Shown here in pieces: positions 859 through 29,794 of a DNA stretch of 32,087 nt. The notes under the pieces were generated by a model. The model saw only the letters and a list, made by a program, of their open reading frames with translations, searched no databases and was not told the origin of the DNA. Source of the DNA: a virus; IMG/VR virus record IMGVR_UViG_3300036985_002969, positions 1 to 32,087 of that record; one strand, given 5' to 3'. The position numbers and the translations under genes are program-made. Position 1 is the stretch's first letter; each line of letters begins with the position of its first letter.

Positions 859-860
859 CC

Positions 861-866
861 GGAGGG
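861..866 (+). promoter_or_regulatory. Strong ribosome binding site deciding a TTG start for terL
   Basis: GGAGGG ends 4 nt before the TTG at 871. No ATG or GTG start with a comparable site exists nearby, so translation of the large terminase most likely begins at this rare TTG codon. Confidence 0.8.
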
Positions 867-870
867 CCAA

Positions 871-4349: not shown

Positions 4350-4717
4350 TGCCGTTCTACCACTACATCGACAGGAAGACAGGCGAGAAGTTTGAGTTGA
4401 TGATGACGATCGCAGAGATGATGCGTCGTCAGAAGAAGAATGGAACGCTCGCTCACGAAGGTCGGACCCTGCATAGGGACATCACCTCAGAGCACGGTGG
4501 ATTCTCAAACACTCCTAGTAACTGGCCCATGCTGAGTGACGGTGCAGGAGTGCATCCCTCGCAGATCGGTGCTGCGTTCAAGGAAAGCGTTGGATTCGGA
4601 ATCCCCACTCAGTTCCATCCTGAAACTGGACAGGCAATCTTTGAGTCAAGATCTCACAGAAGTGCTTTCCTGAAGGCAAAGGGAATGTATGATCGAAGCG
4701 GGGGTTATGGAGATTGA
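4349..4717 (+). CDS. Small conserved head-operon protein with a cysteine-less FmdB-like N-terminus (122 aa)
   Basis: Lies between portal and scaffold, overlapping the portal stop as TGATG (the TTG at 4346 is a less likely start). The N-terminus MPFYHYIDRKTGEKFELMM resembles the start of FmdB-type zinc-ribbon proteins but lacks their cysteines. The second half (PSQIGAAFKESVGFGIPTQFHPETGQAIFESRSHRSAF and a C-terminal GGYGD) looks like a conserved block seen in small proteins next to phage portal genes, from memory. It may be a head-assembly factor, but no function can be shown here. Its last codons overlap the ribosome binding region of the scaffold gene. Confidence 0.65.
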   Translation: MPFYHYIDRKTGEKFELMMTIAEMMRRQKKNGTLAHEGRTLHRDITSEHGGFSNTPSNWPMLSDGAGVHPSQIGAAFKESVGFGIPTQFHPETGQAIFESRSHRSAFLKAKGMYDRSGGYGD

Positions 4718-4719
4718 CC

Positions 4720-5565: not shown

Positions 5566-5583
5566 CAAGAAACGGAGTAAATC

Positions 5584-7523: not shown

Positions 7524-7679
7524 TTACTCTCGGTTGGACATGATTGCGGCTGCATGGATTGACCAAGAAATGGCCTCTGTGATTGTCTTGAGGCCCTCCT
7601 GATCCATGATGCCGATCAGGATGTCGTAGTCTGATTGCCTGATCCTGATGCTCTGCGTCGGTTCTTTGCGGGTGCTCAT
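7524..7679 (-). CDS. 51-aa ribbon-helix-helix (Arc/CopG-type) DNA-binding protein
   Basis: Last gene of the long leftward operon. Its ATG (7679-7677) overlaps the stop of the giant gene as ATGA, so it is probably translated by coupling. The sequence has the RHH plan: a short alternating strand (TQSIRIRQSDYD), helix 1 (DILIGIMDQEGL), a turn, and helix 2 (TITEAISWSIHAAAIM). RHH proteins dimerise, insert the paired strand into the major groove and bind inverted repeats. The stop codon is 3 bp from the terminator palindrome, which makes that repeat family a candidate operator (inference). Confidence 0.7.
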   Translation of the reverse strand: MSTRKEPTQSIRIRQSDYDILIGIMDQEGLKTITEAISWSIHAAAIMSNRE

Positions 7680-10600: not shown

Positions 10601-13600
10601 AATTGCCGTTTCAGGTCCGGTGTATGGCTCTTCCTGCTGCTCTTCTTCGGTCAGTTGTCCGTCATCAGGGAATGTGTTTTCTACAGCTCGTCGCTGTTCT
10701 CTGGCGACTTCCTCTGGGACAACTCGTTCTGCGATGGCGTCTGTTCCTTCATGGTATCCATCGGCAGGTTCGTCGCCCACACGCTCTGGGTCTCCAAGTC
10801 CAGACTCGATCCCAACTGCTTCAGCAACGATTGCCTGAATGGATCGCGATTGGACCGGTTCCCCTTGCCTGAAATCAGAGAACGCAGCCATTCCTCGTTT
10901 GTCATCTGGAACTCCTTCAAGTCCGTAGGTAATTGACTCGACAGCCATAGCGCGCGCAGAGTCGTTGATGATGCCAGTGGCATGCCACTGGGAAAGGTAG
11001 TCAATGAGCGCATCCGTGCGAAGCGCCATGATTGAAGACTGTGACGCTGTGGTTCCATCAGATGAGCGCATTGCGTTGGCGCGCATTGCCGGATCGATTT
11101 CTCCGGCGTAATGGATGCGAAGCCCAATGGCAGGATTTGAGATCTTCACTCCATTGCGATCAACACGCGGATCCGTGAGCACTTCAATGTGCCATCCCGG
11201 ATTCGACTGCTCGATTTGCGCAATGAGTCCGGTCGCTTCTGCAATTGACCTTGCCGTCTTGAAGTTGACCGTGAAAGCAGGTCGAGAGTTGGGTGTCCTC
11301 TCGATTCCATACGGAAGGGTCTGCGTCACGGTCACTCGGCTTGTGGAACCAGCATTCCTGATTGCCTTTGCAATGCGTTCGGCAAAGGCATTGCTGTCAA
11401 ACTTCAGGTAACGAACCGTGATGCCAATGCCAATGCGTCGGCCACCGCCACGCTGGTCTTCGTTGTACTGAATAGAGATGACAGCATTGTCATTCTTCAG
11501 TTCGTCGATGAGCGGCTTCAGGACATCCGACTCAGGATCAATGTCCGTGGTGTTGATCTCGGTCTCGATCAAAGTGAGCGGATCGCGATCAAACGAACGC
11601 TCAAATGATCCAGCTTGACCTGCTGCCGTGGTCCAGCCATTCTCGTCCCAGAGATCTTTTTCCGCAAACCACATGAGAGCCTGTAGGTTCATCGGCTCCA
11701 TGTTGAGTTGGCGAGCGGCGTCGTTCATAATCTCCTGCGCAAATGCATATTCGCCAGTGATCTGATCGATATTGCCTTCCTTGACTTTTCCCTTTACCGC
11801 AGTCTCGGCGTATGCAGGAATCCTTGCCATGCCATATGCGGCTCTGATTGCACGCGCAGCCCATAGGTCAATGGTTGCGTTTGTGCCAAGTCCTGACAGG
11901 TTGCTAAAGAAGGTGTGAACCTTTGGGCTTGAGATCTGTTGCGCCCAGATTCCAGCCATGACATTGAGGGCAGGCCGAGAGTTCATGCCGAACTTTCGGT
12001 TCATAGCAATGCTTGCTCCATCGACAAGATTGCCCTCGCTGTCAAAGGAGGCCGGATTTGCAACTTGAACCGATTCAATCCATTCCTTGCGTGCCTTGTT
12101 GTATGCGCGCTTCGAGTCCTTGAAATCAACCTTTGCTGGTCCATAGGAATTTGCAAGGTGATCGATGGTTAGGAATATCCTCTGCTTGGGGTGAACAAGT
12201 TGTCCGTCCTTGTTCTCGTATGGATCGGTTGGGAAAGGCTTGCCCTGTGTCAGGATGATGTCGCGGAATGGAGTCGGACCGGTGTAAAGGGAAAGATCAG
12301 CGCGCTTCTTAGCAAGGAGAGCGCGAGTCGCGTCCTTTTTCTTTGGGTACTTCCGTCCGGTCTTTCTTGAAAGCGCGTCGAGTTCATTGTCTCGAACCTT
12401 GATCATTGCGTTGATGTTCTTGAGCGCATCAAGCCGAGTCTTGTCGGTCACCCAATCGACATACTTGGACAGGAAGGCGTCGTACTTGCCTGCTGTGAAG
12501 TTGCGCATTGCATCGACAGCGTTCCTGTAATTGGTATCCGCTGGAGTCTGTGGACTGAGCGCGGCAAGCAACTCAGAGAACATGATCTGATGGTTTCCAA
12601 ACGCCGCATGAAGGCGATTGAAGATCTCGTTGTACCACCTGTTCTCTCGAATGATCTTTTGCGCGCGCTCGTCGCCGTTCTTGGCGCGTTCGTTGAGATC
12701 ATTGAAGCGGTCAACAATGTTCTTAACCGCAATAGATTTGTTCTTGGAACGCTTTTCCGCGTTCTCAGCAACAACTTTCTTGCGTTCATCCTTTGAAAGT
12801 CCAACCAGAGACTTTTGCTCTCCAACCAACTGCCAGCCAATCTTGCCGGTGTTGAACGCAATCTCTCCATCAGAGATGCTGATTGATTTGACAGGTGGAA
12901 TGATCCATCCCGGATCGCCAGCGCGCCGCTTGGCATTGTCGTCAATCTGCTGACCAAACTGGTCGTTTGCAACAATGCGAAGCAAGAACTCCATTGTGGA
13001 CTTGACCTTGCCAGTCGCCTTGGAGGACGAGATTACAGATGCAATTGCATCCTCCATGTCGGTTGGCAACTTGCGCGAGAACTTCATCGCATCGTCAAGG
13101 TCATTTCCCTTGATCTTGCGTGCGCTTGTAATTGCAGCCTTGAGGAAGTTCTTTCCCTTGCCAGTCATATTCTTGTATGCGGGATCTTCAGAAATGGAGT
13201 CAACATCAATAGCAAGTGCGTTTGCCTTCTCTTCGTCTGGGGCAAATCGATCAAGATTGGCTTCGTAGTACGCCTTGGCGGTCGTCTTGCGAGCATTGAC
13301 CGTCTTGTCTTTGAGCATCGCGTTTTCAATCGTTCGCTTTGAGATCACCCATGCGTTCGAGATAGAGATGCCAACAAGCTCGAGAACCTTTCCTGCCATC
13401 GACTTGGACGGAACTTGACGCGGTGACTGCATGACGGTGACCGTGTCAGAAGGTCCATCAATCGTCTCTGCCCTGTCGTCAATGTCGTTTCCAATTGACA
13501 GCACGCTCACGCTGCCTACGGGTCGAGTCGTTGCGGCTGGAACTCCGGGATCAATAGTCGGACTGCTTGTATCTTGAAGTCCGCTACGCATTGAGGTTGC

Positions 13601-16600
13601 AAGCGCAAGTGGGCGGAACGATTCGTTTGCCGCAAGAATGAAATCAACAAGCGCGTCAAGAGCCTCGTCTGGCTTGCCAGTATTTGTTGCAAGCAGCCGC
13701 AATGCCCTGCCAATCTCAACATCAAATCTATTATCAGTACGAAATGCCGTTTTGCCATCGTATTCTTTTGATCCTGTGTTGATCAAAAGGCGCAGTTCTG
13801 CGGCCATCATTGCCATGCGGTTTCCAGCCGCTTGCGCGCTTTCTGGATCTGCAACAAGAGATGCAAGAGCAAGGGATGAAAAGGTCTTTTTATCCGCTGC
13901 AATAATTGAAGCCGAAAATCCAAGTGTTTCAAGTGCATCGTTTGCACGACCAACCGCAGACGATACAAATTCGGCTCCTCCAAAACGCTTTGCAACCGAC
14001 ATCATCAATTCGGTTGCAGCGTTCATCGATGCAATGATCCACTCAAATGTGACGCCAGATGCGTTGCGCGCCTTGGCCTCATCAACAATCGTCTTGAGGA
14101 CGATGTGAAGTTCCCGTGGATCCGACAGGATTAGCGTAGAAATCTTTGCGGCAATACGGACGGCGCGCTCTTTATTGAGTGATTCGCGCTTATATCCAAC
14201 CCGTGTGAGTTCCGGGTCCAGTTGTCGCATAATCAAGTCGTACAACTCTGGAGATGCCTTGTGCAACTTATCAAGAATGGCCGCGTGGTTTGCATCGACG
14301 ATGCGCTCGTAAGTCGTGCCATCATCAGATTGAATTCCCATCAACAGGGCATGCCACATTTCGTGGTAGATGGTGTCAAATACTCCTGCACGGGCGGCAT
14401 CACTACCCGATCCAATACCTGGAAGTTTGGAGCTTACATTGGAATACGAGATCACTGGCATGTTCAGGTAGAACTCTCCTTCCTGAAGCGGGATATCGGC
14501 TGCAACATCGGAAACTACATACGACTTTGTTCCATCCGAAGCGACAACTTCCCTCATCCGCATGTTCATTGACAGATCGGGGTAGAACTGTCCAAGAGTC
14601 CGACTTTGAGACTCACGAGTAGTCTCTATTACAACGATGCCATTTTCATTGGCATGCGTGATTGGGTTCTCGTCTGGATTAAAGCCAAATTGGTCTGCAA
14701 GTACCTTGGGATCGGCAAATCGGTGTTGCCTCCCACTCAAATCTCCAAGCCGACCAATATTGGCCTGCCCTTCGTGCGCAAAACTTACTGTTTCATCGCT
14801 ATCACCAATTAAATAATGACTTGGAGAAGCGTTGTCCTTGGTTCCACGAGCAAGAAACACTTGTGCTGCCCTTGCTGCATTGCCGATTTGCTCCACAGTC
14901 AACTTTTTCTGATTGTTCTCGATGTATCCAAGATCGCCTGGCTTCACTTCACTATTTGAACGCAATGACCCCCTTGCGCTAGACGCGCCAACCATTAGTG
15001 CCCATGATCTTTTCACAATTGTAAAAAGCGTAGTTTTTGGTCGAGGAGGAGCATTCCTTGACTTCTGGCCGCGCCTTTTCCACTTTGCAGAAGGAAGATC
15101 CTTGTTTTCAGTTGTCGGCATTCTTGGACCGGCAAACGCTGCTTGAGGAGGAGTATTCTTGTCAACAGTTGCATCGTTTGCAACAACCGACGCGCCATGC
15201 GCCTGAGCCTGCATGATGTCGGTTACAGAGACTGGAGCAAGAGCAATGCGAAATCCCTTTGCGTCTTCATAGATCTCAAAGAATCCAGTATCGAGCAGTT
15301 CTGCTCGTTCATACTCATTCAACTGGTTGTAGATGTCATGGTCGTGCTTTCCGTATTTTGGATCATCTATGGCGTACAGGGACACAAGTTCCGATGGTGT
15401 CGTTCCTGCAATAGATGCGGCCTTATTTGCGGCCTGAGTAAGCAAATGCCCAGCCGGAGTCTGCCACAGGAGCATCGCCCATGATTGGCTCTGGAGGCTG
15501 GTCATGGCATTTACTACACCAGCCGTAGAAAAACGGCCTCTAGTGCCCGGCATTACCGTTGTTCCATTTGGCGCAAGGCCAAACATCACGGTTGCAATGG
15601 ACTTGATCCGGTTTCGACGCCTTGCCATCATTGCCGTTGCGGTGACAGACGGCTTCTTTGGAGTTGGCGCAGGGGCCGCAGGCTCGGGTGCAGTAGGAGC
15701 CTCTGGAGCAGTACTGGGAGCAGCCGGTTCAAGGCGACCGTCCGAATCAAATTTATAGACCGTATAGGTTCCATCTTCGTTGTCTTTGATGTAGCCAAGA
15801 CCAACCATCAGATCGAGGCCAATGGGGTCAAGGGTCGAGGCGTTCCATTCGTCGCGAGTAAACGCTTCGTTGCTTAAAAACTTGTTGATGAGCGCCCTCA
15901 ACGCGTCACCAAAAGTATCGATCGAATCAGGATCCTGTCCGATCAGATCGGCAATGAAAGCAGGTGGCAACTTGCCCGTGCGATTGCCCTCTTCCGTGAT
16001 TTCCGCCCACAGGTCACGAGGAGTCACCGCAGGCTCAGGGGCTGGCTCTGGCGTAGGCGCAGGCTCTGTGCCCGTAGGCGCAGGCTCAGGGGCAGGCTCT
16101 GGGGCTGGGGCTGGTTCTGGAGTGGACGCAGGCGCAGGGGCCGCAGGGGCAGCCGTTGGGGCTGTAGGAGTTGCGGTAGGAGTAGGAGTTGCCGGAGCTG
16201 GTTTGGCTGTAGGAGCAATGCCCTCTCGCGACTTCAGGTCCGACCACTTGGTCTCCATCTTGACACGCGACTCAGGAGACATCGGCCTGCCATCTGTCAG
16301 GCCAGTCTCAAGACGAGCAAGTTGATCCTTCTCGGTATTGGTAAGTGGCTTTCCAGTGGTAGCCGGAGTGACCTTTGGAAGCGGTGGCGCCTCGTACGGC
16401 TTTGTGGCCGCAAGACGAGCCGTCAGTTCGTCGATCTCTTTCTGAAGTCGAGTCTTGTCGGCTGCGGTTGCCGTTGGGGCAAAGAAGGCTCGCTTCTTCA
16501 ACTCCAACTGCTGCTTCTCATACGGACTCAGAGGTTTGAGGTCCTCTGGCTTTGTAGGAGCTGCCGGTGCAGGAGTGGGAGCGGGCGTAGGGGCTGGCGC

Positions 16601-19360
16601 GGGCGCGGGAGCCGCAATGCCCTCGCGCTCCTTGAGGCGCTTAAACTCCTCCTCCCACTTGATGCGTTGTTCTGCCTTCATCGGCCTGCCATCTGTCAGG
16701 GCAGTCGCGATCTCCTTGAGACGGCGCTTCTCTCCCTCTGTAAGCGGTTTGCCAGTGGGGACTGGAGTGACCGTTGGCAGGGCTGGAGCAGCAAACTTCT
16801 TGGCGCTGCGCGAGCGGCGATCAAGCGTGTCGATCTCAGTCTTCAGCCGCTCTTTGTCCTTAGCGTCGGTGCGCGGATCGGCAAACGCTGCCTTCTTCAA
16901 CTTTAACTGCTCGGTGTCGTACGGAGACAGGGGATCGAGATCCTCGTCCTTGGTTCCGAAGACCTTGCGCGAGAACAGTTCCTGACGCTCCTTGAGCATC
17001 TTGAGGAGATCTGCGCCCTTTGGACGCTTCGTCTCATCGGCAAGCATGCCGTCGATCTCGTCAAGGCGCTTCTGCTCTTCTGGGGTAAGTGCCGCAGGCG
17101 CCGTCTTGGGAGCGGAGTATCCACCAGCCTTTGCCGATGCTCGCATCAACTTGCTAACCAGTTCGGACCGCTTCGCGTTGTCGCCGAGGACAGCCGCCAT
17201 TGCAGCCGACAACTTAGGGTCGGAGAAGAGTCGCCCGATGTTGGCCGCAGTTGGGGCAAGACCTGCGGTGGCAAGGATCATCTGGACCGCAGTTGGGTTC
17301 AACCCAACAAGCTTGTCGATCTCTGCATCATCAAGCGCAGCAAGTTTTGCCGCATCAATGCCACCGTTCTCGATCTTGATCGGTGTCTTTGTCTTTCGAT
17401 CGACAAGTTCAACGCCATCAAGGATTGATCGCGTTCCTGCCGCTGGTGCGCCAGTTGTCAAGGATTTCTTGACCGCTGCTGGCGAAGGCTCCGCAGGAAT
17501 GGAAACAGCATCGGATGGAACATCAAGTCCACGACGCTTGAGTTCCGTAATTGCATCTTGCGGCCTGACGCGCAGGGTAGTTGCTCCCGCGCTGGTATCG
17601 ACCTCAGTCGTGTCTCCAACCGATTTGCCGCGTGCCGCATCTTCAAGTTGCTGCTGAGAGAGATCTGTGGCATTGCCACGGGTGAATGCTCCGCTCTCCT
17701 TGATGCCCTGCTCGAAAGCCTTCCACGCGCGCTCGCGGCTAGTCATCTCCTGCCGGTACTGTGAAAGATCTGTTGCCGCAACAATGCGCCCTGCAACGCC
17801 ACCGCCGCCAGCGCCTCCAAGGATGTTGCCTGCAAACTGCGTCAGAACCTCATTCCACGCCGCCGATTTAATGGACTCATCATCGCTTGTCAGGTCGCGG
17901 TAGACCTGTGCTCGGGTGAGTGGATCTCCACCAGAAGCCTCCCATGCTGCGATTTGCACGAGTGTTCCAAGCGCGTCTTCCGCAACTTCTTGGAAACCTT
18001 CAGCAAGCGCTCCCGCAGCGACCTTTCTGATGATTGTGGAATTGCTGCTCAACTTCTTGACCGACGCGGCAACTGCGGCTCGCGCCATAGTCTGTGCAGC
18101 GGCCTGCTGTACCTTTCCAAACAGCGCTTCGCCAGGAATCATCTGAAGCACGGTTGATGCAATGCCGTAGAGGGTTGCATCGACTGACGCAATTGCCCGC
18201 GCTCCTTCGTCGTCATATCCAAGTTGGAGTGCCTGACGATACGACGAGTTGTATGCGCCACCTGCCGCCTGTGCGCCCGCGCTTCCGACGAACATCGATA
18301 TTGCGCTGGTTCCTCCTGTCATCATTGCAAGAGCAAGCGACAAGCTAAGTTGTCCAACGCCATCGCCCATTGCATTCAGGACCTGCATAGTCTGATCAGT
18401 CGATCCTGTCATCGACTGCTTGCCAAGCTCAAGCACTCCAGAAAAGTTGTTAAAGAAGGTGGACGCTGCTTCTCCGCTTGTTCCTGTTTGAAAGCCGAAG
18501 ATGTCCTCGGACCATGACTCAAGTCCGCTGCCGAGAAGGGATCCAAATCCACTAATCGACTGAAGTCCGCTCAATAAGCCCGATGGCACAGAAAGTGCAA
18601 TGCCACGCAGTTTTCCGGCTCCTCCGGTGCGCTGGATATCAATGGACTTCTTTTCAAGTTCTCGATTGACCCATGCTCCCCATTCTCCTCGGTCAATTGC
18701 CTTCTGCTGATCAACTCTCTTGCGGACTGCACTCTTGAGATCAAGAAATTGCATCACGCCTTGCGTTTCTTCCGAGAGCGATTCGTTCTTGCGAACAACA
18801 ATCCCCTCATCGCCAAGACTTTGACCGGTGCGTGGATCCGTGAATATGCGTTCCCACATATTCGGATCTGTCCGCATTTTTTCGCGCTTATCCCGATCTG
18901 CAATGACCGACTGCATGTCGGGCTGAGACAGCGTGTCGAGGTTCTGCGAATAATGATCGACAAAGTCATCGATGTTGCGATCAGCCGAATAGCCGCGAGG
19001 ACCACTAGGAAGTTTCTGTTGACGCTTGATCCATGATTCAGCGTCAATTCCGCCAGCGGTTCCGCCAACTTTGTATTTGGCATCCTCCGGAGTCGGCTCA
19101 TAGATGCCCTGTGACTCTTTGAGGCGACGATCAGCAGCGTCAGAACTGCTTGACATTGCCTTGCCAACCGCCTCCAACTCCTTCTGAGCCATGTATGGAT
19201 TGAACGATGGCGATGTCGGATCAGAAGCCTTACTGGCTGCGCGGTTTATTGCGCCGCCAACATCCATCTGAGGCGCAACCTCATTGAGCATTGGTTCCGC
19301 AGGCATGAGGAGCGGGCGTCCAGTGACTGGATCGAATGGCGGCTTGTTGATCGTGCTCAT
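7676..19360 (-). CDS. Giant polyvalent/ejection-type protein with zincin motif (3894 aa)
   Basis: One 11.7-kb reading frame, among the largest genes expected in a phage. Order of parts: hydrophilic 1-250; Ala/Gly-rich, partly hydrophobic membrane-interaction-like segment about 250-480 (AQAAGGAYNSSYRQAL; ALAEGFQEVAEDALG); two 110-residue repeats (807-916 and 940-1049) joined by Ala-Pro linkers; a longer Pro/Ala/Glu spacer about 1050-1115; a zincin-like site HEMWH at 1666-1670 with E1731 as possible third ligand; a helical domain about 2200-2580; and a C-terminal region from about 2975 with the FRGPTRATLLQYKRF block near 3560, typical of large polyvalent proteins. Proteins of this type are thought to be packaged and injected with the DNA. 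Start and stop both use ATGA overlaps with neighbours. Confidence 0.85.
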   Translation of the reverse strand: MSTINKPPFDPVTGRPLLMPAEPMLNEVAPQMDVGGAINRAASKASDPTSPSFNPYMAQKELEAVGKAMSSSSDAADRRLKESQGIYEPTPEDAKYKVGGTAGGIDAESWIKRQQKLPSGPRGYSADRNIDDFVDHYSQNLDTLSQPDMQSVIADRDKREKMRTDPNMWERIFTDPRTGQSLGDEGIVVRKNESLSEETQGVMQFLDLKSAVRKRVDQQKAIDRGEWGAWVNRELEKKSIDIQRTGGAGKLRGIALSVPSGLLSGLQSISGFGSLLGSGLESWSEDIFGFQTGTSGEAASTFFNNFSGVLELGKQSMTGSTDQTMQVLNAMGDGVGQLSLSLALAMMTGGTSAISMFVGSAGAQAAGGAYNSSYRQALQLGYDDEGARAIASVDATLYGIASTVLQMIPGEALFGKVQQAAAQTMARAAVAASVKKLSSNSTIIRKVAAGALAEGFQEVAEDALGTLVQIAAWEASGGDPLTRAQVYRDLTSDDESIKSAAWNEVLTQFAGNILGGAGGGGVAGRIVAATDLSQYRQEMTSRERAWKAFEQGIKESGAFTRGNATDLSQQQLEDAARGKSVGDTTEVDTSAGATTLRVRPQDAITELKRRGLDVPSDAVSIPAEPSPAAVKKSLTTGAPAAGTRSILDGVELVDRKTKTPIKIENGGIDAAKLAALDDAEIDKLVGLNPTAVQMILATAGLAPTAANIGRLFSDPKLSAAMAAVLGDNAKRSELVSKLMRASAKAGGYSAPKTAPAALTPEEQKRLDEIDGMLADETKRPKGADLLKMLKERQELFSRKVFGTKDEDLDPLSPYDTEQLKLKKAAFADPRTDAKDKERLKTEIDTLDRRSRSAKKFAAPALPTVTPVPTGKPLTEGEKRRLKEIATALTDGRPMKAEQRIKWEEEFKRLKEREGIAAPAPAPAPTPAPTPAPAAPTKPEDLKPLSPYEKQQLELKKRAFFAPTATAADKTRLQKEIDELTARLAATKPYEAPPLPKVTPATTGKPLTNTEKDQLARLETGLTDGRPMSPESRVKMETKWSDLKSREGIAPTAKPAPATPTPTATPTAPTAAPAAPAPASTPEPAPAPEPAPEPAPTGTEPAPTPEPAPEPAVTPRDLWAEITEEGNRTGKLPPAFIADLIGQDPDSIDTFGDALRALINKFLSNEAFTRDEWNASTLDPIGLDLMVGLGYIKDNEDGTYTVYKFDSDGRLEPAAPSTAPEAPTAPEPAAPAPTPKKPSVTATAMMARRRNRIKSIATVMFGLAPNGTTVMPGTRGRFSTAGVVNAMTSLQSQSWAMLLWQTPAGHLLTQAANKAASIAGTTPSELVSLYAIDDPKYGKHDHDIYNQLNEYERAELLDTGFFEIYEDAKGFRIALAPVSVTDIMQAQAHGASVVANDATVDKNTPPQAAFAGPRMPTTENKDLPSAKWKRRGQKSRNAPPRPKTTLFTIVKRSWALMVGASSARGSLRSNSEVKPGDLGYIENNQKKLTVEQIGNAARAAQVFLARGTKDNASPSHYLIGDSDETVSFAHEGQANIGRLGDLSGRQHRFADPKVLADQFGFNPDENPITHANENGIVVIETTRESQSRTLGQFYPDLSMNMRMREVVASDGTKSYVVSDVAADIPLQEGEFYLNMPVISYSNVSSKLPGIGSGSDAARAGVFDTIYHEMWHALLMGIQSDDGTTYERIVDANHAAILDKLHKASPELYDLIMRQLDPELTRVGYKRESLNKERAVRIAAKISTLILSDPRELHIVLKTIVDEAKARNASGVTFEWIIASMNAATELMMSVAKRFGGAEFVSSAVGRANDALETLGFSASIIAADKKTFSSLALASLVADPESAQAAGNRMAMMAAELRLLINTGSKEYDGKTAFRTDNRFDVEIGRALRLLATNTGKPDEALDALVDFILAANESFRPLALATSMRSGLQDTSSPTIDPGVPAATTRPVGSVSVLSIGNDIDDRAETIDGPSDTVTVMQSPRQVPSKSMAGKVLELVGISISNAWVISKRTIENAMLKDKTVNARKTTAKAYYEANLDRFAPDEEKANALAIDVDSISEDPAYKNMTGKGKNFLKAAITSARKIKGNDLDDAMKFSRKLPTDMEDAIASVISSSKATGKVKSTMEFLLRIVANDQFGQQIDDNAKRRAGDPGWIIPPVKSISISDGEIAFNTGKIGWQLVGEQKSLVGLSKDERKKVVAENAEKRSKNKSIAVKNIVDRFNDLNERAKNGDERAQKIIRENRWYNEIFNRLHAAFGNHQIMFSELLAALSPQTPADTNYRNAVDAMRNFTAGKYDAFLSKYVDWVTDKTRLDALKNINAMIKVRDNELDALSRKTGRKYPKKKDATRALLAKKRADLSLYTGPTPFRDIILTQGKPFPTDPYENKDGQLVHPKQRIFLTIDHLANSYGPAKVDFKDSKRAYNKARKEWIESVQVANPASFDSEGNLVDGASIAMNRKFGMNSRPALNVMAGIWAQQISSPKVHTFFSNLSGLGTNATIDLWAARAIRAAYGMARIPAYAETAVKGKVKEGNIDQITGEYAFAQEIMNDAARQLNMEPMNLQALMWFAEKDLWDENGWTTAAGQAGSFERSFDRDPLTLIETEINTTDIDPESDVLKPLIDELKNDNAVISIQYNEDQRGGGRRIGIGITVRYLKFDSNAFAERIAKAIRNAGSTSRVTVTQTLPYGIERTPNSRPAFTVNFKTARSIAEATGLIAQIEQSNPGWHIEVLTDPRVDRNGVKISNPAIGLRIHYAGEIDPAMRANAMRSSDGTTASQSSIMALRTDALIDYLSQWHATGIINDSARAMAVESITYGLEGVPDDKRGMAAFSDFRQGEPVQSRSIQAIVAEAVGIESGLGDPERVGDEPADGYHEGTDAIAERVVPEEVAREQRRAVENTFPDDGQLTEEEQQEEPYTGPETAIRRTPVLSMEMVDSDEDTDLALPAALETPAPRGGALSALRNFFGTSNEVAVVSRKQPGDLGMFRRWFLPLIGSAWSSSNRQIRFVAEELVGQDLERARVTQGIVTQGQDLYSKLPSAYRKEKGRKFYMLMDRYYDPNKPNSDAQWVDEEGSRLSDDVIDILREFKRIDEDQRQGIIKAKRESATEIVRYMGLQRLVRVAEENGANWAVERVQYGPGRRDYQMFVMDTDTGDMMTPEEARDAIVKVMVPDDWGRQFSHIFHAFFGSYEGFWYSKSAYAEAKAVEGTTNSQAMRAARRSIAMDGGTATTNTEAEMTRRLLAFRKNPPAGVNKEDIGRIEINIQTYIPPDIVRVSGKQYDALRRHIKQAAGIESAAVSDMLRGRIGRAEGKQRFYAPLLERTGKEGFDMDFMRAWESQTAGYYKWLYFNRLRRNVASTIEDLRRQGYIGWAAHFQDTLDYTTQFRQSQFEQALDGLVAAIPGIRTMVGPMPTRRWMSMVRTANVVRQLWTVRQQVVNSMQPFQTVFPIIGGVRFLSYMKRYNTREGKEILSRFGYLRPNGQWYEGREFRMTSGTGWLTRVYEPIKKIMQKSPIGEAESRNQNFTFVAFYLYAKEELGMADNEAARHALLRVAQTQFAFTKANNPVVFRGPTRATLLQYKRFMLSSVGLAYDGILMARHPVTGERLPMRTRSAMFTRWLATFIVQGGVKGLPVYFLFDALARLLTDEEDKATGYDIYQGLREQLGENWANVVVMGLPAAAGIDISGSIVLFPKPYGRTTYEQLGSFVAGPTLSAMGDIYTSLDNKDAVYQSGFREFTNAAYASSPAVQQLGNAIDIIAGETEQYDVQGRLKFRKTTAEQVRGIMGFRTIRESLESLEYNKIVVMKEAMDAYKDEIATLAASGMIVEMQQRIRHWNGMFPDMPLPFTMKALMKDPSIGRRIKRKIDDRTLDTRQRRMESVNDDLARRLVEKYGMDVDSEE

Positions 19361-22300
19361 CGCTTACGGTCCTTCTGCTGGAATGATGCGCCCTTCGTCT
19401 TCACGAATTCGGCAAAGTCACGCTTGGTTTGATCAGCACTTCTGCCAGAACTGAGATCGTTTGGATTGCGATCAAAAATGTCCTGTGCTTTCACAACTTG
19501 GCCTTCGAGACGCTTGTACTCATCGCGGAGTCTTTGTTCAGCCTCACGACCCTTATTTGGCCCTCCAAATAAAGTATCTAACCATTTGGCTTCTTCTGGT
19601 TTCCAATTCATGTCTGCCGGAGGCTCAGGCGTAGCAACATTGGCTCTTTGCTTGGAACGCATGGCTTGATCTGCATTCCCGCTTGTCGCCGCTGTGCCCA
19701 TGTCTTGAAGTTGCATAGGCCGATCCTGTTGCGGCAATGCAGTAGGAGCGGACGGACGAGAAACAGGTTGGGCAGAAGCAGGTGAAGTAGTCGAAGCCGA
19801 CGGGCGAGAAACAGGTCGAGCAGGAGCACTTGGATTGGTCGCGCCCCTTGGAGTGGTCTGTGGAGCGTTCTCTTCGGTCATTGAACGCAGACGCTTGCGA
19901 AGATCCTCCACAATCAATTTGCCCTTTACGCTGTTTCCAAATCCATTTTGCTTTGCAACGGATTCGACCATGCGATCGATCTGACGATACTTGTTGCCGA
20001 AATCCTTGCGGGCCTGTTCACTTCCGCTCTGCGCGCGGCCCTCCATCTCCTGGGCAACGGTAAAGATGTTCTGCGCCATTTCATTGATGCCCTGCGTGTA
20101 TTGGGGAGTACGGCCTCCTCCGGCTTGCAACTCAGAGTCGGAAGCATCGGCAAATCCGAGTTTGTATACCTTGTCTCCAATTTCGCTAGCCATGTTGCTG
20201 GTCGGAAGATTGGCTCCAGCCCGATCAGAAGGCTTGTTGGCCTTATCAGGATTCTTTGCCCATCCGGTGCTGTCGAATCCGCGCCTCTTATCAATCTTGT
20301 AGCCAAGCGAGTGCGCGATGTACATCGTCATCATTGCGCGACCTGTGGGTTCCAATTCGCCGTAGAAATTACCGACGATTGCCTCAAGTTGAGCCTGCGC
20401 GTTGCTGTTCTCAGGGTCCCATGCCTCGTCGGTTGTTTGGAACTTCTGAAGTAGATCCTCCAACTTCGCCCACTCTTCGGGAGAACGAGCACGGATGTTT
20501 GATGTTTCCTTGGAGAACAACTTCCTCTGTGCGTCGTTAAGTGCAAAGTTGCCAAGGTTGACCGTCTGCTGCGAGAACGGAAGAACGCGAAGTTCGTTTC
20601 CATTCTCTTGTGGAACAATGTTTGCAAACTCCGTGTCCACCTCAAGGTCAGCAAGTTGGCGCATCTGCGTTGGTGCAGGAATCTCTTCGCCGTTTGGTCC
20701 CTGAATTAGCGGGATAGCAATGTCACTTCCACGCCTTTGCACCTGCCTACTTCCACGCGAACCTTGTTGTATGCTATACCGATCTGGATTAAGCGCGGGC
20801 TTCTTTGCCTCGGGGACCTCAATGCCCATAGCCTTAGCGACCCGCTTGGCTCGGTCTCCCTTTGAGTTCTGCTCTTTGGCAAAATCCTGAATGCGAGCCT
20901 GATCAAGTTCATCGTTCAAATCGATGCCCTGCTCTTGCAATGCCGCAACGGCTGCCTCTGGATCGTTCTTCATCATCTCTGTCAGCATGTCGCGCTGTTC
21001 TGGATCTTCAATGGATGCGACAGCACTTGCAATCACTTGACGCTCGCTTGGAGTCGATGCCGGATCCTGCCCCTTAGACCACTTTTCGTAGGCAGCAAGA
21101 GCATCTTCTGGGTTCATGGGGGCGCTACCTCCAGCCGCTCGCTGCGTGCCTGTGCCCGCCGATGCAGAACGACCTTGACCGCCGCCTGCCGCCGGCGTCA
21201 TTTGGAGCTTGCCCATCTGATCCATGTAGCGGGTTCCGGGAGGAAGTGAATCGATTTCCGATTGCTGGCGCGGAACAGGGACAACTTGTCCGTTTTCTGC
21301 GCGCATAGAAGGCATGATGTCGCCTGTTGCAGGATTGCGGAATCTGCCGTCCTGCGTGGACTGGAGGCCAGTTCCCTGCTGAATCTCTGCAAACTGCTCT
21401 GCTGGCGGAGCGTCGTACCCATATGGGCTGCTATCGAGCGGCTTTGACTGCATAAATCCCTGCCTAAGTTCTTCCGCGCGAGCCTCAATTTGGTCAATTG
21501 CCTGTTTGCGCTGTTCTGGAGAGAACCGCCTGTCAGAAATAACACTCGTCCGCGACTTCTCAAGTTGGCTCAGTGCTTCTCTGTACCCGGACTCCGTACC
21601 AGCTGGATATACGAATCCAAGATTAGGTGGTTCAGTTGGCTGCGGTGGCGGCGGCAATGGCCCCTGCTCAGACATGCCTGGTTGCGGAACCTGCTGTCCG
21701 GGAGACTGTGGCGCACTTGGTTGTGGCGCCTGTGGCGCTTGTGGCTGTCCGGGCGCCTGTGGCGCTTGTGGCGGCTGTTGTCCAGCGGGGTACTTGATGG
21801 GCGCGCCGGGCGGGGGCGGTGGCGGAGGAGCGGGGATGTTGGTCCCTAGGTGATAGCCACCGCTTGCTCCTCCAAAGCCGGGAGGTGCAGGCGGACCCAC
21901 CAATCGATTGGCGCGCGCTTCATCTCGCTCTGCGCGCCCAGGAACACCTCCGGGTGGCGCCCAATCCTGCGGCAATACTGGATTGTTCGGGTTGACCGGC
22001 GGCTTCCAATCCTTCGGCAACGGCGGATTGTTTGGGTTTGCCGGCTTACTCGGCGGCATGTTTGCCAGAGAAGCAGGCATTGACGGGTCGTATTGCTTCG
22101 GCAATGGCGGATTGTTTGGGTTTGCCGGCTTACTCGGCGGCATGTTTGCCAGAGAAGCAGGCATTGACGGGTCGTATTGCTTCGGCAATGGCGGATTGTT
22201 TGGGTTTGCCGGCTTACTCGGCGGCATGTTTGCCAGAGAAGCAGGCATTGACGGGTCGTATTGCTTTGCCCGCTCCTCGGCCAGCCGTGCCTGTCGGCCT

Positions 22301-22380
22301 GCGAAAGCCTGTTGCATCTGCTGTTGACGCTTCAAGGTCTCCGACGCTTGGAAGTTTGGATCACGAGGTGACGCGGGCAT
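19357..22380 (-). CDS. Large proline/glutamine-rich internal-virion-like protein (1007 aa)
   Basis: Lies directly before the giant gene and overlaps it as ATGA, so the two are probably made and packaged together. I place the start at ATG 22380, which has GGAG (22390-22387) at 6-nt spacing; the upstream ATG at 22392 sits against the hairpin without an independent site. Residues about 40-123 are three 28-residue repeats, about 180-247 a Pro/Gln-rich disordered stretch, and about 850-880 a Pro/Ser hinge. The folded part (about 560-840) includes TGRAMMTMYIAHSLGYK and long helical segments. No enzymatic motif is recognised. An ejection protein is the best guess, from size, context and disorder. 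Confidence 0.75.
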   Translation of the reverse strand: MPASPRDPNFQASETLKRQQQMQQAFAGRQARLAEERAKQYDPSMPASLANMPPSKPANPNNPPLPKQYDPSMPASLANMPPSKPANPNNPPLPKQYDPSMPASLANMPPSKPANPNNPPLPKDWKPPVNPNNPVLPQDWAPPGGVPGRAERDEARANRLVGPPAPPGFGGASGGYHLGTNIPAPPPPPPPGAPIKYPAGQQPPQAPQAPGQPQAPQAPQPSAPQSPGQQVPQPGMSEQGPLPPPPQPTEPPNLGFVYPAGTESGYREALSQLEKSRTSVISDRRFSPEQRKQAIDQIEARAEELRQGFMQSKPLDSSPYGYDAPPAEQFAEIQQGTGLQSTQDGRFRNPATGDIMPSMRAENGQVVPVPRQQSEIDSLPPGTRYMDQMGKLQMTPAAGGGQGRSASAGTGTQRAAGGSAPMNPEDALAAYEKWSKGQDPASTPSERQVIASAVASIEDPEQRDMLTEMMKNDPEAAVAALQEQGIDLNDELDQARIQDFAKEQNSKGDRAKRVAKAMGIEVPEAKKPALNPDRYSIQQGSRGSRQVQRRGSDIAIPLIQGPNGEEIPAPTQMRQLADLEVDTEFANIVPQENGNELRVLPFSQQTVNLGNFALNDAQRKLFSKETSNIRARSPEEWAKLEDLLQKFQTTDEAWDPENSNAQAQLEAIVGNFYGELEPTGRAMMTMYIAHSLGYKIDKRRGFDSTGWAKNPDKANKPSDRAGANLPTSNMASEIGDKVYKLGFADASDSELQAGGGRTPQYTQGINEMAQNIFTVAQEMEGRAQSGSEQARKDFGNKYRQIDRMVESVAKQNGFGNSVKGKLIVEDLRKRLRSMTEENAPQTTPRGATNPSAPARPVSRPSASTTSPASAQPVSRPSAPTALPQQDRPMQLQDMGTAATSGNADQAMRSKQRANVATPEPPADMNWKPEEAKWLDTLFGGPNKGREAEQRLRDEYKRLEGQVVKAQDIFDRNPNDLSSGRSADQTKRDFAEFVKTKGASFQQKDRKR
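22012..22263. repeat. Three 84-bp direct repeats in the 1007-aa gene
   Basis: Units at 22012-22095, 22096-22179 and 22180-22263, identical apart from a C/T difference near the start of unit 1. Each encodes the same 28 residues, beginning QYDPSMPASLANMPP (44-127 when counted from ATG 22392). A degenerate partial fourth unit (KDWKPPVNPNNPVLPQDW) follows in the protein. Near identity at silent positions implies recent unit duplication. Confidence 0.95.
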
Positions 22381-22394
22381 CAGAGTCTCCATAA

Positions 22395-22422: not shown

Positions 22423-22860
22423 CTAGCCAATAATGTGCTTGAGAACCCAGGATTTGACCCTGTCGGTCAGTTTGGGATGTCGTCCCGGAGCCTGCCGCCA
22501 CTTGTTCTTTGGGCACGAGGCTTCCGGCATGGTCAACTTGATCGACAACTTGGACCGAGCCGTTACGCCGCAACCACAGCCGCGACAGAATCCAACCGAG
22601 TCAGCAAGATCCTTGCTGTCGAAGCGCTGCTCGCACGCGCGGCAGAGATCGGCTCGCTTGTTGAACTCGTCGTCGGTGACGGGTCCGTAGAGCTGCAAAC
22701 TCATCTCGGCGGTCACATACTTCTTTACATTGGAAACCGTGATCTCGGTGGGCGGATCTGGAACGGCCTGCTTGGGAGATTCCTGCTCCTGGCGAAGACG
22801 CTTGGCAGCTTCAACCGAGGTGTCGAACGGAGCGGAGAAGTAGGAGTTCTTTGAAATCAT
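22423..22860 (-). CDS. Zinc-binding protein with CxxC / CxxCxC cluster (145 aa)
   Basis: The C-terminal half carries C73-x2-C76, C92-x2-C95-x-C97 and C116-P, a pattern expected to bind one or two zinc ions. The surrounding form (RADLCRACEQRF, FCRGCGCGVTARSKL, CPKNKW) matches a motif style I recall from small proteins of many phages and prophages, ending in CP..KW. The first 45 residues are hydrophilic and lack structure-forming pattern. Its start overlaps the stop of the cysteine-rich gene (TGATG). It may help assemble or cap the neighbouring cysteine-rich protein, but that is only inferred from adjacency. Confidence 0.7.
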   Translation of the reverse strand: MISKNSYFSAPFDTSVEAAKRLRQEQESPKQAVPDPPTEITVSNVKKYVTAEMSLQLYGPVTDDEFNKRADLCRACEQRFDSKDLADSVGFCRGCGCGVTARSKLSIKLTMPEASCPKNKWRQAPGRHPKLTDRVKSWVLKHIIG

Positions 22861-25064
22861 CAGACGCCTTCGTCGCAGTCAGGAGTGAAACCAATGCAAT
22901 CAATCTGTCCAGTAGTCCCATGCGGGGGGCAATCGGTGTCCGGTCCGCACTCGGTATTGATCTGCACAGTTGGATCAACCGCCGTTGGGTCGCAGTCACA
23001 TACTCCGTCTAGGCACACGGCTCCACAACATGCCCGGTTGGAGTATTCGCTTTGCGCGCATGGATCAGCGCCATCATCTGGACATCCGCATCCCCAGCAC
23101 CACGACAGCTGGTCTTGCCCTGGAAAGGTCCAAAGGTTGCAAAGTCCGGGCGGAGGAGCAGGGTGGCTCTTGGGCCATGTCCCCCATGAATTGAATACGG
23201 GAAGTGGCGGCTTTTCTGGGCGACAGGTGAACGGAATCGAGTCAAGCCATGAATCAACAGAGCGCTTCGCTCCCACAAGGAACGAGTCTGCCATGTACAG
23301 GCAGCGGATCTTGTAGCAGTATCCGCATTGGGGGCCGGGATTGCAGGAACTTCCACTTGCCGCAACGAAAGTCATGTCCGCCTTGTAGTTGGTGTACTTG
23401 ATCCTGAGACCTTCGCAGTACGGCTTGATGGAGAAGGATTCGCACAATTCAGGAGGGTCGCATGACGGCAGCGGAAGCGCGCAGTCGTATTCCGCGCATC
23501 CACGGCAATTCATTGGGATGCCAAACGACGCCGATGTGTTGCAGCATGTGCATGCGGATTGTGTTCCCGGACTTCTTCCTCCGCCCTTCAACGCTTCGAT
23601 GCAGTTTTGCGCTCCACGGGCATCTCCAATGAGGATCGACAGGATTTCATCTCCTGGGCACACATTGGCGTCCCATCCTGCCCATGTCCATCCACCTGGT
23701 CGTCCACGGAAATAGATCCACTGGCGCTCGCACCAGTAGTCGTAGTCCGCTTGCGCCGTCGCTCCGCTTGTTGGACCAGGGTATGTGATAAAGCAGTCTG
23801 CCTGAAGCGGATTCAGGTCTGGATGCGCGTCAACAACATCCACCTTGCGGAGCAGCGGCTGATTGCTTGTGCCAACCGTTTTGTATGTCATTCGCTTGCG
23901 GAACGGCCCAAGCGTGTGCATCTGATCTACATCTTCAATGCATGTGTTGTATCCAGCGCCTGGGAATTTTGCGTCGAGCTCCTGATATGCGGTTCGCTGC
24001 TCATCGCGCCAATCATTTGAACGGATGTAGCCGGCGTTGGCAAGCTTGATGAGCACGGCCTGCTCCGGATGCGTGCAGGTTCCAAAGAGATCCTCAAGCA
24101 ATTGCTCCGCCTCCGCCTGTTCGATGACGCCAAACCGAACTGCATCGATGAGGTCTCCTGCATACAGCGGTATTCCGGAGCATGCGAAGATCCACCACTT
24201 CGGCACGAGGTCATCGGTCTGGTAGATGTTCCCGCCGCAGTTGACTCCACCTGGACCTTGCGTGCATCCGGGCACATAGATGCGAACGCCTTCTGGGCAG
24301 TCCGCGATGCGCCACCATCGCTCGAAATGCACGACAGCAAGCATTTGATGCGCTCGATTGAGGCCACCGAGCCTCGTGCAGTTGCTGAAGGATCCTCCTG
24401 AATAGGTGATGGTGTCGCAATCTCCAGATGAACCAAGGGCCTGACCGTCCTTGTGGCATATGGACTCGACAGCCCACTTCCATTGGTCCGTCGAACCCAT
24501 GCGGCGACGGCGCCATTCGGACATTCCCTCGTCATTGCAGTTGGAGCAGCAATCGACGCAGTTATTGTTCCAGATCTGCGAGTTGTATGCAGGGTCGTTG
24601 CAGCATCCGAACTTAAGGGCCATTCCGCATGCAGGAGTCGTGCAGGAACTTCCATCCAGGTAGGCTTGGCATGGAGTTGCCACTGGAACCGGAGGATCTC
24701 CGACACCCTCGTATTCGCAAACTGCGGGAGGGCACATCTCGGCTAGACCACTCACCGATCCAATAGCATTGGTTGCCGTGATCGGAATGCATCGCCACCA
24801 GCAACTGTGGTAGTGGTAGATCGCCTGGATCGGAGACTCGGTTGGCTGCGTCTTCTCGCAGCAGAACTCGTCGTAGACCGGATTGAGCGGGTCGCTGTTG
24901 TCGATGCATCCGCCGGCGGTCTTGATGCTGTATCCAGGTCGCTCGCACCAGAGAAGAAGAGTGTCGTCCTTGTGGCAGCATCCGCTCTCGATCTCGGTCT
25001 GCCAGATGCAGTCCTTCTCGCAGGTCGGGTCGCAACAGCACGATTGGGCGTAGGCTCCAAGCAT
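22860..25064 (-). CDS. Extremely cysteine-rich virion-module protein of unknown function (734 aa)
   Basis: I count about 65 cysteines in 734 residues (near 9%), spread over the whole length and often paired, as in SCCCDPTCEKDC (8-19), VDCCSNC and the C-terminal GAVCLDGVCDCD. Tryptophan, glycine and proline are also abundant; long helices occur only in a central stretch (about 290-380) that is cysteine-poor and may be a separate domain. No signal peptide is visible. The gene lies between tail-like proteins and a zinc-binding protein, each joined by TGATG overlaps, so a tail-fibre/spike or disulfide-stabilised surface role is plausible. Multiple metal sites are an alternative. I do not recognise a family. 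Confidence 0.8.
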   Translation of the reverse strand: MLGAYAQSCCCDPTCEKDCIWQTEIESGCCHKDDTLLLWCERPGYSIKTAGGCIDNSDPLNPVYDEFCCEKTQPTESPIQAIYHYHSCWWRCIPITATNAIGSVSGLAEMCPPAVCEYEGVGDPPVPVATPCQAYLDGSSCTTPACGMALKFGCCNDPAYNSQIWNNNCVDCCSNCNDEGMSEWRRRRMGSTDQWKWAVESICHKDGQALGSSGDCDTITYSGGSFSNCTRLGGLNRAHQMLAVVHFERWWRIADCPEGVRIYVPGCTQGPGGVNCGGNIYQTDDLVPKWWIFACSGIPLYAGDLIDAVRFGVIEQAEAEQLLEDLFGTCTHPEQAVLIKLANAGYIRSNDWRDEQRTAYQELDAKFPGAGYNTCIEDVDQMHTLGPFRKRMTYKTVGTSNQPLLRKVDVVDAHPDLNPLQADCFITYPGPTSGATAQADYDYWCERQWIYFRGRPGGWTWAGWDANVCPGDEILSILIGDARGAQNCIEALKGGGRSPGTQSACTCCNTSASFGIPMNCRGCAEYDCALPLPSCDPPELCESFSIKPYCEGLRIKYTNYKADMTFVAASGSSCNPGPQCGYCYKIRCLYMADSFLVGAKRSVDSWLDSIPFTCRPEKPPLPVFNSWGTWPKSHPAPPPGLCNLWTFPGQDQLSWCWGCGCPDDGADPCAQSEYSNRACCGAVCLDGVCDCDPTAVDPTVQINTECGPDTDCPPHGTTGQIDCIGFTPDCDEGV

Positions 25065-25543
25065 CAGCAGATCTCCACTGGATTTGGATTTTCAAACCAT
25101 GCGCGACCCGCTGGGTCGATAATCATCTCGACGACGGCATTCGTCGGATACGCAAGCCTTGTTGGTGTTGCGGGAATGATGTTGCCGCCATCATTGGCAA
25201 TCGTCGTCTCGTACGAGTTCCATGCGACACCGCTCCTGGTCGAGTTGCGACCATTTGACACGGTGTTCCATGTTCCGCCCGTCGCAGCTCGCTCTACCTC
25301 TTCCCATGTGTATGTCCACCAAGCCTTGCCGCCAACAGGAGCCTGCGACGACGAACCTAGGATTTTTGCGGCAAATACCTGTGGGACAAGACGGTCTTCT
25401 GCACGATCTGGAGTACTAGCCGTGCGCGAAGCACTATTTACAATCCGATCAATTTCCGACAGTTGGCTTTCCAACTCACGCCAAGCATCAGCCTGCTTCC
25501 TTGCGACTGAACTAGGAAGGAGTTGTAAAAGTTTGCGCGGCAT
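25064..25543 (-). CDS. Structural protein of unknown role (159 aa)
   Basis: Joined to both neighbours by TGATG overlaps. The N-terminal 45 residues are helical and charged (LPSSVARKQADAWRELESQLSEIDRIVNSAS). The C-terminal half is beta-like with many aromatic and small residues (GGKAWWTYTWEEVERA, EMIIDPAGRAWFENP). This layout, a short helical anchor followed by a beta domain, is common in tail-tip and fibre-attachment proteins, but no family is recognised. Confidence 0.6.
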   Translation of the reverse strand: MPRKLLQLLPSSVARKQADAWRELESQLSEIDRIVNSASRTASTPDRAEDRLVPQVFAAKILGSSSQAPVGGKAWWTYTWEEVERAATGGTWNTVSNGRNSTRSGVAWNSYETTIANDGGNIIPATPTRLAYPTNAVVEMIIDPAGRAWFENPNPVEIC

Positions 25544-26331
25544 CAGAATATTGTTGATTCAGACACAAGTTGATTGCTGACGGTCTTCCACTTGCCGTTT
25601 CCGCTGTCAAGAGTCTGATCCCACACAGCCTGCTGGCGGTAATGGCCTGATGGGTCATATGTGAGCACAATTGAATTGAACCACGGGTACTGTCCGATGT
25701 CGTTCTTTGCGTTCTGAAATCCCTCGTACTTGAGGGTGTTTACCGCAAAGACTCCACCAAGCTCGCCAATGGCAAAGGCATTCGAGTTCAACTTTCCTGT
25801 CTTCGCGAGTTCGGCATCATTGACTGACAGGACCGGAGTCGTGTACTCCAGTTCAATCTTCATTGTCGGTCGCTGGATCTTGTACGGTCGCGGATACAAC
25901 TCCGGAGTTTGCAAGTTTCCAGGACGAAGTTGGATTGAGAACCAATCGGTGGGCGCAGGGTCGGCATTGTGCCTGTACCCATTGGTGAAGCTTGCAGAGT
26001 TAATCAGGTACGCATCGACATACTCAACCGTGCTCTGGATACGAACTCGGCGCTGCGTCTGGTTCCTGCGTTGCGCGCGCTGATTGCGACCATACATCAG
26101 ACTCACGATGTACTTTCCGTTTCCCCATCGCGTCGATTCTGCGGAAATGAGCGGCACATTGAGAATGCCGCTGTACAAGGTTTCGCCCACCGCAATAACT
26201 GCGGCATCGATTGCATCCTTCTGCGCTGTGTAGCCAGTAGCAAGGCATCTGATTGTCGCACGATCTGCGGTCTCGGACTCGTATCCGATGGATATCGAAG
26301 TCCCAGGAATGTGCGTCTTTATGTTTGCCAT
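25543..26331 (-). CDS. Probable tail or neck structural protein (262 aa)
   Basis: A beta-rich, Asn/Thr/Tyr-rich protein without cysteine clusters or helices of note. Its features include MANIKTHIPGTSISIGYESE at the start, a basic central stretch (GRNQRAQRRNQTQRRVRI, about 80-98) and a C-terminal half with YDPSGHYRQQAVWDQTLD. It is placed three nucleotides after the small Gln-rich gene and overlaps the next gene as TGATG. Context points to a virion component between the adaptor and the ejection proteins. No enzymatic motif is seen. Confidence 0.6.
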   Translation of the reverse strand: MANIKTHIPGTSISIGYESETADRATIRCLATGYTAQKDAIDAAVIAVGETLYSGILNVPLISAESTRWGNGKYIVSLMYGRNQRAQRRNQTQRRVRIQSTVEYVDAYLINSASFTNGYRHNADPAPTDWFSIQLRPGNLQTPELYPRPYKIQRPTMKIELEYTTPVLSVNDAELAKTGKLNSNAFAIGELGGVFAVNTLKYEGFQNAKNDIGQYPWFNSIVLTYDPSGHYRQQAVWDQTLDSGNGKWKTVSNQLVSESTIF

Positions 26332-29040: not shown

Positions 29041-29268
29041 TCACTTTCCGTTTCTTGATCGGTTCCTCGACTTCGACTGCACGCGCAAGTTCGAGGGCTT
29101 GTTGTTCATTGGGTTCGAGTCGCGGTGATCCACATCGCGTCCGTCACCCTTTTGGACTTTGCCGAGTGTTTCCATGCTACGGCGAGCCTTGTTGCGGTTG
29201 GATCGCGCCGCAACCTGTTCTGGCTTGCCGTGAAAATCACGGTATTCCTTGGCGTAGTCGCGTGGCAT
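29041..29268 (-). CDS. Small HNH-like nuclease (75 aa)
   Basis: Residues 45-63 contain the HNH core DVDHRDSNPMNNKPSNLRV: the DH pair, the central N and the final N are placed as in the His-Asn-His motif, though the last H position is an Asn as in the HNN subgroup. The rest is strongly basic (SNRNKARRSMETLGKVQKGDGR and KSRNRSRNGK), as expected for DNA binding. The start is ATG 29268, two bases after the preceding TGA; a longer in-frame ORF to 29613 is an artefact of read-through. HNH proteins usually assist terminase cutting, but here the gene lies far from terL. Confidence 0.8.
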   Translation of the reverse strand: MPRDYAKEYRDFHGKPEQVAARSNRNKARRSMETLGKVQKGDGRDVDHRDSNPMNNKPSNLRVQSKSRNRSRNGK

Positions 29269-29270
29269 AG

Positions 29271-29390
29271 TCAGGTCCGACCGGGCTTTGGAGTGCCGCC
29301 ACCGGCGCTCGGTCCGCCAGCGCTTGGACGCCTTGCCGCTGCAACTTTCTTTCCAACAGGCTTCCTTGCTGCCATTGATTTCTTCTTCAT
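29271..29390 (-). CDS. 39-aa basic Lys/Arg-Ala-Gly peptide
   Basis: ATG 29390 with AAGGAA upstream, TGA at 29273-29271. The peptide starts MKKKSMAARKPVGKK and ends in a Gly/Pro tail. It sits in the only otherwise empty slot between two genes and keeps the operon's tight spacing, which supports translation. It is a second very basic 39-residue peptide, comparable in kind (not sequence) to the one between terS and terL. A DNA- or RNA-binding or packaging-associated role is speculation. Confidence 0.6.
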   Translation of the reverse strand: MKKKSMAARKPVGKKVAAARRPSAGGPSAGGGTPKPGRT

Positions 29391-29401
29391 GTTTCTGTTC
29401 C

Positions 29402-29794
29402 TTATGTTTCTGCAATCCAGTACTGAAGTACGGGAGTGCCTGTGAGTGAGCGGAATGTGGGAACCGTTCCCGATCCGCTTGAGTTGATTCGGAGAATTGC
29501 CATTTCGCGCGGCTTGAGTTCCATAAACGGAACGAAAAGCAATAACAGACCTGTTCCAATCTGAATGTTCTCGCCGACGGTGGTCGATGTGTTTCTGAAG
29601 TAGGCGTATCCAACCGTTGTACCGGTAAGCGTGTTCAGGTCAATGGCAACGCCATTTGTAATCGCAGCGGCCTGTGCTCCGCCGGCTGATTTGGTTCCGG
29701 TCATGTCGAACAAGGCAGTACCTGGGATCTGCGAGTACGAAAGCAGACCCTTGTTGACTTGCATGACGGTTGTGATCTGGATCTCGTTTGCCAT
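29402..29794 (-). CDS. Probable structural protein (130 aa)
   Basis: The sequence is Thr/Gly/Ala rich and beta-like throughout (KGLLSYSQIPGTALFDMTGT, VGYAYFRNTSTTVGENIQIGTG, GTPVLQYWIAET), without charged clusters. It closely resembles a recurring type of small head or tail protein (AYFRN.S..VGENI), but no named family is certain. GGAAG precedes the ATG; the start is 1 nt after the preceding stop. The hydrophobic LLLLFVPF stretch (about 82-90) is too short and isolated to be a membrane anchor. Confidence 0.6.
   Translation of the reverse strand: MANEIQITTVMQVNKGLLSYSQIPGTALFDMTGTKSAGGAQAAAITNGVAIDLNTLTGTTVGYAYFRNTSTTVGENIQIGTGLLLLFVPFMELKPREMAILRINSSGSGTVPTFRSLTGTPVLQYWIAET

Follow-up and report, generated by a model that had tools for sequence, protein, structure and literature searches.

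In the T4 gp37/gp38 and Tfa-type pairs of tailed phages, a variable exposed protein is encoded close to the tail genes, and the gene after it specifies a small, conserved helper. High cysteine content is a feature of metallothioneins and of disulfide-rich extracellular proteins, and a small six-cysteine family, DUF6171 (PF19668), has to our knowledge no known function. Here we analyzed a 32,087-nucleotide stretch of viral DNA (IMG/VR record IMGVR_UViG_3300036985_002969, hereafter the window), in which a gene for a very cysteine-rich protein is followed by a small gene with the DUF6171 cysteine pattern. This layout recalls the tail fibre/helper pairs, and the cysteine content recalls the two cysteine-rich protein groups. 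The window gene belongs to a two-gene cassette that recurs in phages; in it, the partner is conserved and the cysteine-rich bodies differ completely from phage to phage.

The cysteine-rich gene and its neighbors

The open reading frame lies on the minus strand; the first-pass annotation had given no strand. As noted there, its 734-residue product is extremely rich in cysteine, with 65 residues (8.9%). It also has 24 tryptophans and 11 histidines, and the same interval read on the plus strand contains eight stop codons. The cysteines are dense at both ends and sparser at residues 256–490; the middle, described earlier as cysteine-poor, is not cysteine-free. The neighboring proteins, stated to be nearly devoid of cysteine, contain 0% (the 1,011- and 3,894-residue proteins downstream) or, for most upstream proteins, 0.4–2.6%. 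The gene overlaps its neighbors on both sides by the sequence TGATG, its start with the stop of the 159-residue gene and its stop with the start of the 145-residue gene. The latter encodes a zinc-type protein with six cysteines, in agreement with the zinc-binding product that had been predicted for the coupled gene (Table 1).

Table 1. Positions of the cysteine-rich gene, its tag and the genes around it in the window
Feature	Position	Strand	Basis
Cysteine-rich protein, 734 aa, N-terminal tag MLGAYAQSCCC; predicted new fold	22860..25064	-	Sequence, alignment, AlphaFold and Foldseek
CCC tag, codons 9-11, near the N-terminus; common to 98/112 cassettes	25032..25040	-	Sequence and cassette survey
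Partner (divergent DUF6171 / phrog_13558), a zinc-type Cys6 protein of 145 aa; its start and the stop of the cysteine-rich gene overlap (TGATG)	22423..22860	-	
Upstream neighbor, 159 aa; stop overlaps start of cysteine-rich gene; relatives upstream of cassettes in 17 cysteine-rich families (shared synteny)	25064..25543	-	
Neighbor, 262 aa; profile match (hhalign E 4.5e-5, probability 69%) to a late protein of ~300 aa encoded upstream of many other cassettes	25543..26331	-	
Terminase large subunit (phage context)	871..2601	+	
Major head protein-like (phage context)	5584..6651	+	

The plus-strand half of the window holds the terminase and major head protein genes, and the DNA is therefore that of a tailed phage. 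The cysteine-rich gene belongs to a late structural block, and TerL and head genes lie close by; these surroundings are in keeping with its earlier assignment to a virion module. Three further minus-strand genes were seen in the window. The 3,894-residue protein (7676–19360) is probably a giant internal or ejection-type virion protein, a KQYDPSMPASLANMPPSKPANPNNPPLP-type repeat occurs in three near-exact copies close to the N-terminus of the 1,011-residue protein (19357–22392), and an HNH-endonuclease-like gene lies among the late genes (29041–29613; phrog_4578, E 2e-6).

A recurring two-gene cassette

IMG/VR was searched with partner alignments only, and the gene directly upstream was read afterwards. 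This yielded 115 distinct cassettes, of which 112 could be evaluated. The directly upstream protein carried an N-terminal CCC in 98 of the 112, typically four to nine residues after the initial methionine and most often followed by glycine. Eight more upstream proteins were judged by inspection to be cysteine-rich with no exact CCC (one or two starts are unclear), and in the remaining six cases, which came from cyanophages, a Variovorax phage and the contig L081, the partner was of the DUF6171 type. Under the same permissive rule, the tag was found in 2 of 877 other open reading frames, both of them true members. The upstream proteins ranged from 206 to 1,725 residues and had a median cysteine content of 7.25% (3.6–14.7%). 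They fell into 29 families at a BLAST cut-off of E<1e-6 over half of the shorter protein, at which very remote homology between some families is possible. The partner gene usually overlaps the cysteine-rich gene or sits immediately downstream, and the window pair has the same organization, with CCC in a cysteine-rich protein directly upstream of the partner. The protein had been regarded as a single oddity; instead, it represents one of at least 29 families with the same tag and partner.

The partner protein

Nearly every relative of the window protein is followed by a protein of 97–151 residues with six invariant cysteines. The pattern CxxC ... CxxCGC ... CP was invariant in an alignment of 18 sequences and is present in the window partner. 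No adjacent partner gene was detected for two members of the window family (L008 and L022); L012 and some other contigs end inside the gene. All 18 partner members tested matched phrog_13558, and 13 of 18 related partners matched DUF6171 (best E 5e-11). The window partner scored 16.1 bits against DUF6171 (E 0.015), below the curated Pfam cutoff of 27 bits. The window partner is a divergent relative of DUF6171. A literature search, with most subscription journals outside its scope, returned no paper on DUF6171 and nothing relevant on cysteine-rich phage tail proteins.

DUF6171-type genes also occur beside adhesin genes in cultured cyanophages. The gene adjoins a gp37–gp38 adhesin tip with a cysteine cluster in S-SRM01 and a tail fibre gene in S-CBS2, a further likeness to the T4 and Tfa-type pairs. 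In Synechococcus phage S-SRM01 (L029, 6279–9225), a flavin-dependent halogenase gene is also adjacent, and a link between halogenation and the tail tip is possible. In S-CBS2 (L083, 5806–6225), the DUF6171-type gp34 bears the name "RNA polymerase-like protein," probably a misannotation, and the neighboring gp35 has an N-terminal cysteine cluster. By inspection, the DUF6171-type gene of L081/L082 (around 5388–6177) adjoins sulfotransferase-like and glycine-rich adhesin-like genes.

Relatives and predicted structure of the window protein

Searches of Pfam, PHROG and PDB sequences with the cysteine-rich protein and its alignment gave no match; among the families thus left unmatched were the PHROG and Pfam tail families that represent known fibres, spikes and receptor-binding proteins of phages. 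No match was obtained by tblastn against the 50,697 cultured-phage records of INPHARED. Relatives with 26–70% identity, full-length proteins among them, were found in phages of different types, on about 25 contigs of IMG/VR; an additional family scan with a T4-like member as the query gave no further contigs. The AlphaFold model had a pLDDT of 57.8 with a 12-sequence alignment and of 75.5 (pTM 0.79) with a 26-sequence alignment. Foldseek returned nothing significant for the better model against PDB (best E 2.5) or for the first, weaker model against PDB and BFVD (best BFVD E 0.5). The first-pass annotation had recognized no family and had proposed remote-homology searches, structure prediction and a search of metagenomic phages. 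Its view was upheld at the level of Pfam, PHROG, PDB sequences and PDB folds: no known family or enzyme was matched, a good model resembled no solved fold, and the search of metagenomic phages gave the relatives on the IMG/VR contigs.

Conservation is much stronger in a core (VPKWWIFACSG, DWRxEQ, LGPFRKR and ERQWVYF) than at the ends of the protein, and this core is confidently predicted in the model. Such a core might be a catalytic domain acting, for example, on the host surface. We consider this highly improbable, given that the protein matched no enzyme fold or sequence and that the other 28 families lack the core yet have the same tag and partner.

In GTDB, the cysteine-rich protein matched only two MAG contigs. 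Among the 396 and 385 related genomes surveyed, the only match outside the two bacterial bins was a weak one of 24 bits. Because related genomes lack matches, the two MAG contigs are probably binned phage contigs. Taking the host from these matches was rejected, since only two MAG contigs match and the neighboring genomes do not.

Conservation and chemistry of the cysteines

In the alignment of 26 window-family sequences, cysteine ranked first in conservation among the residue types (mean identity 0.78), ahead of tryptophan (0.68) and arginine (0.63), and 28 cysteine columns were near-universal among the 22 full-length sequences. On this evidence from the homologues, the high cysteine content is not due to chance. 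The composition of the protein is the one feature that would fit a chance reading frame or an annotation artefact, an explanation already refuted by the full-length relatives at 26–70% identity, the conservation of cysteine above all other residues and the conservation of the gene pair.

Adjacent cysteines were over-represented in the window family (160 CC pairs observed, 105 expected), CxxC was near expectation (105 observed, 89 expected) and CxC was depleted (60 observed, 96 expected). The enrichment of CxxC or CxC that would mark a zinc-cluster or metallothionein-like protein was thus not found in this family. Because of this combination, the cysteine pattern looks more like disulfide-rich than zinc-ribbon chemistry. 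Between the disulfide-stabilized and metal-loaded modules suggested previously, the former is the better guess, with the disulfides themselves predicted indirectly, from the motif counts. Co-loss of cysteines was perfect for the pairs C267–C276, C588–C679 and C642–C684, and the overall signal was no stronger than that for other residues.

A protein whose cysteine clusters bind zinc, iron or copper, with the partner as a metallochaperone and the metal serving structure or receptor mimicry, is a somewhat unlikely alternative. The six invariant cysteines of the partner are typical of zinc or iron-sulfur sites, and the large protein has CCC, cysteine clusters and some CxxC pairs, e.g., C169–C176. 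However, the window family shows the motif frequencies given above, in which CC and not CxxC or CxC is enriched, and its member in the window has only 11 histidines in 734 residues.

Genomic settings of the cassettes

Tail genes often precede the cassette. The window-family gene was found in dissimilar surroundings. The L012 copy stands in a T4-like head/tail block, behind the terminase, tail sheath and portal genes; the L019 copy lies after tail-fibre genes and L-shaped tail-fibre-assembly-like genes and before exonuclease VIII and RecT-like genes; the copies of the window, L002 and L003 precede large cysteine-free proteins within a late block. These settings differ, and the same cysteine-rich protein therefore serves phages with different gene plans.

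Some cassettes are associated with adhesin-type modules. RCC1 propeller repeats were identified in the bodies of L074 and L068 (E 2e-53 and 1e-12), and the L061 body weakly matched a glycine-rich domain (E 0.002). The L052 cassette is directly preceded by a gene for an Mtd_N receptor-binding protein (E 8.6e-12). The L074 protein with RCC1 repeats (662–5836) is the 1,725-residue CCC protein, and the gene after its partner resembles, by inspection, GMP reductase/IMP dehydrogenase.

The cassette of several phages is flanked by lysis-type genes for small membrane proteins or lipoproteins on one side and by integrase or recombination genes on the other, so it could encode a late non-virion factor. 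Such a factor would be released at lysis or would act against the host envelope or competing phages, and its cassette would be an accessory beside the lysis genes. In many families, a small transmembrane or lipoprotein gene is just upstream (by inspection, spanin- or holin-like genes of this kind are directly upstream of many cassettes on L163–L217), the downstream genes encode an integrase or a RecB-type exonuclease, and the cassette moves between phage types. We nevertheless regard a non-virion role as unlikely: in the window, L002, L003 and L012, the cassette is inside structural-gene blocks, the bodies carry adhesin-type modules, and the N-terminus has no evident signal peptide.

Proposed function

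The best explanation, to which we assign a probability of roughly 0.45, is that the cassette encodes a modular class of exposed, probably tail-associated adhesins, whose CCC tag is constant and whose maturation or docking is served by a dedicated zinc partner. Counted in its favor were the frequency of the tag (98/112 against 2/877 in the background), the 29 families, the tail-gene settings (including those of the DUF6171-type genes in S-CBS2 and S-SRM01), the RCC1 and Mtd_N modules, the weak glycine-rich-domain match, the excess of CC, the conservation of cysteine, the three perfectly co-lost pairs and the synteny across 17 families. Counted against it were the window family, which has no fold match supporting an adhesin function, the position of the cassette beside lysis-type and integrase or recombination genes in several phages, the two members with no adjacent partner (L008 and L022) and the co-loss of cysteines, which does not exceed that of other residues.

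As a late, surface-exposed adhesin, the cysteine-rich protein would be made in reduced form in the cytoplasm, and disulfides (or metal) would stabilize it on lysis or release. The constant CCC tag may be a docking or maturation signal, and the zinc protein may act as a dedicated chaperone or adaptor that recognizes the tag or shields its thiols. A constant tag and a dedicated partner would make the body swappable between phages and hosts. In a fuller and more tentative form of the proposal, the cassette would be a widespread phage display device, undescribed in the literature searched, in which any of many unrelated cysteine-rich adhesin bodies bears one CCC tag. The small zinc protein would recognize this tag, mature the protein by thiol shielding or by insertion of disulfides or metal, and dock it on the virion, and bodies could be exchanged among tailed phages, both T4-like and other.

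If the cassette reading is true, these genes would amount to a modular phage protein system of a new kind. The cassette is common in viromes from freshwater and other environments, and cultured-phage records show no detectable similarity except for distant relatives of the partner. The partner gene offers a handle for finding otherwise unrecognizable host-interaction proteins in metagenomic phages. The system also raises the testable questions of how a protein with 65 cysteines can be produced in a reducing cytoplasm and what makes one CCC tag and one zinc protein necessary for bodies that are otherwise unrelated.

Comparison with known systems

The cassette resembles the T4 gp37/gp38 and Tfa-type pairs in its layout and shows no sequence or fold similarity to them. 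We know of no counterpart of the cysteine-rich body, the N-terminal CCC tag or the zinc-type helper among the tail fibre/chaperone pairs. Mtd_N, the domain of the major tropism determinant, occurs immediately upstream of some cassettes as a separate gene, and the cysteine-rich proteins themselves lack it. Unlike metallothioneins, with which it shares a high cysteine content and no sequence relation, the window protein is ten-fold longer, is rich in tryptophan and has a folded core. The subfamily of the window partner has the cysteine pattern of DUF6171 and phrog_13558 and differs from DUF6171 in an extra RAxLTVKLTMP segment, an N-terminal AExSL helix and its pairing with a CCC protein.
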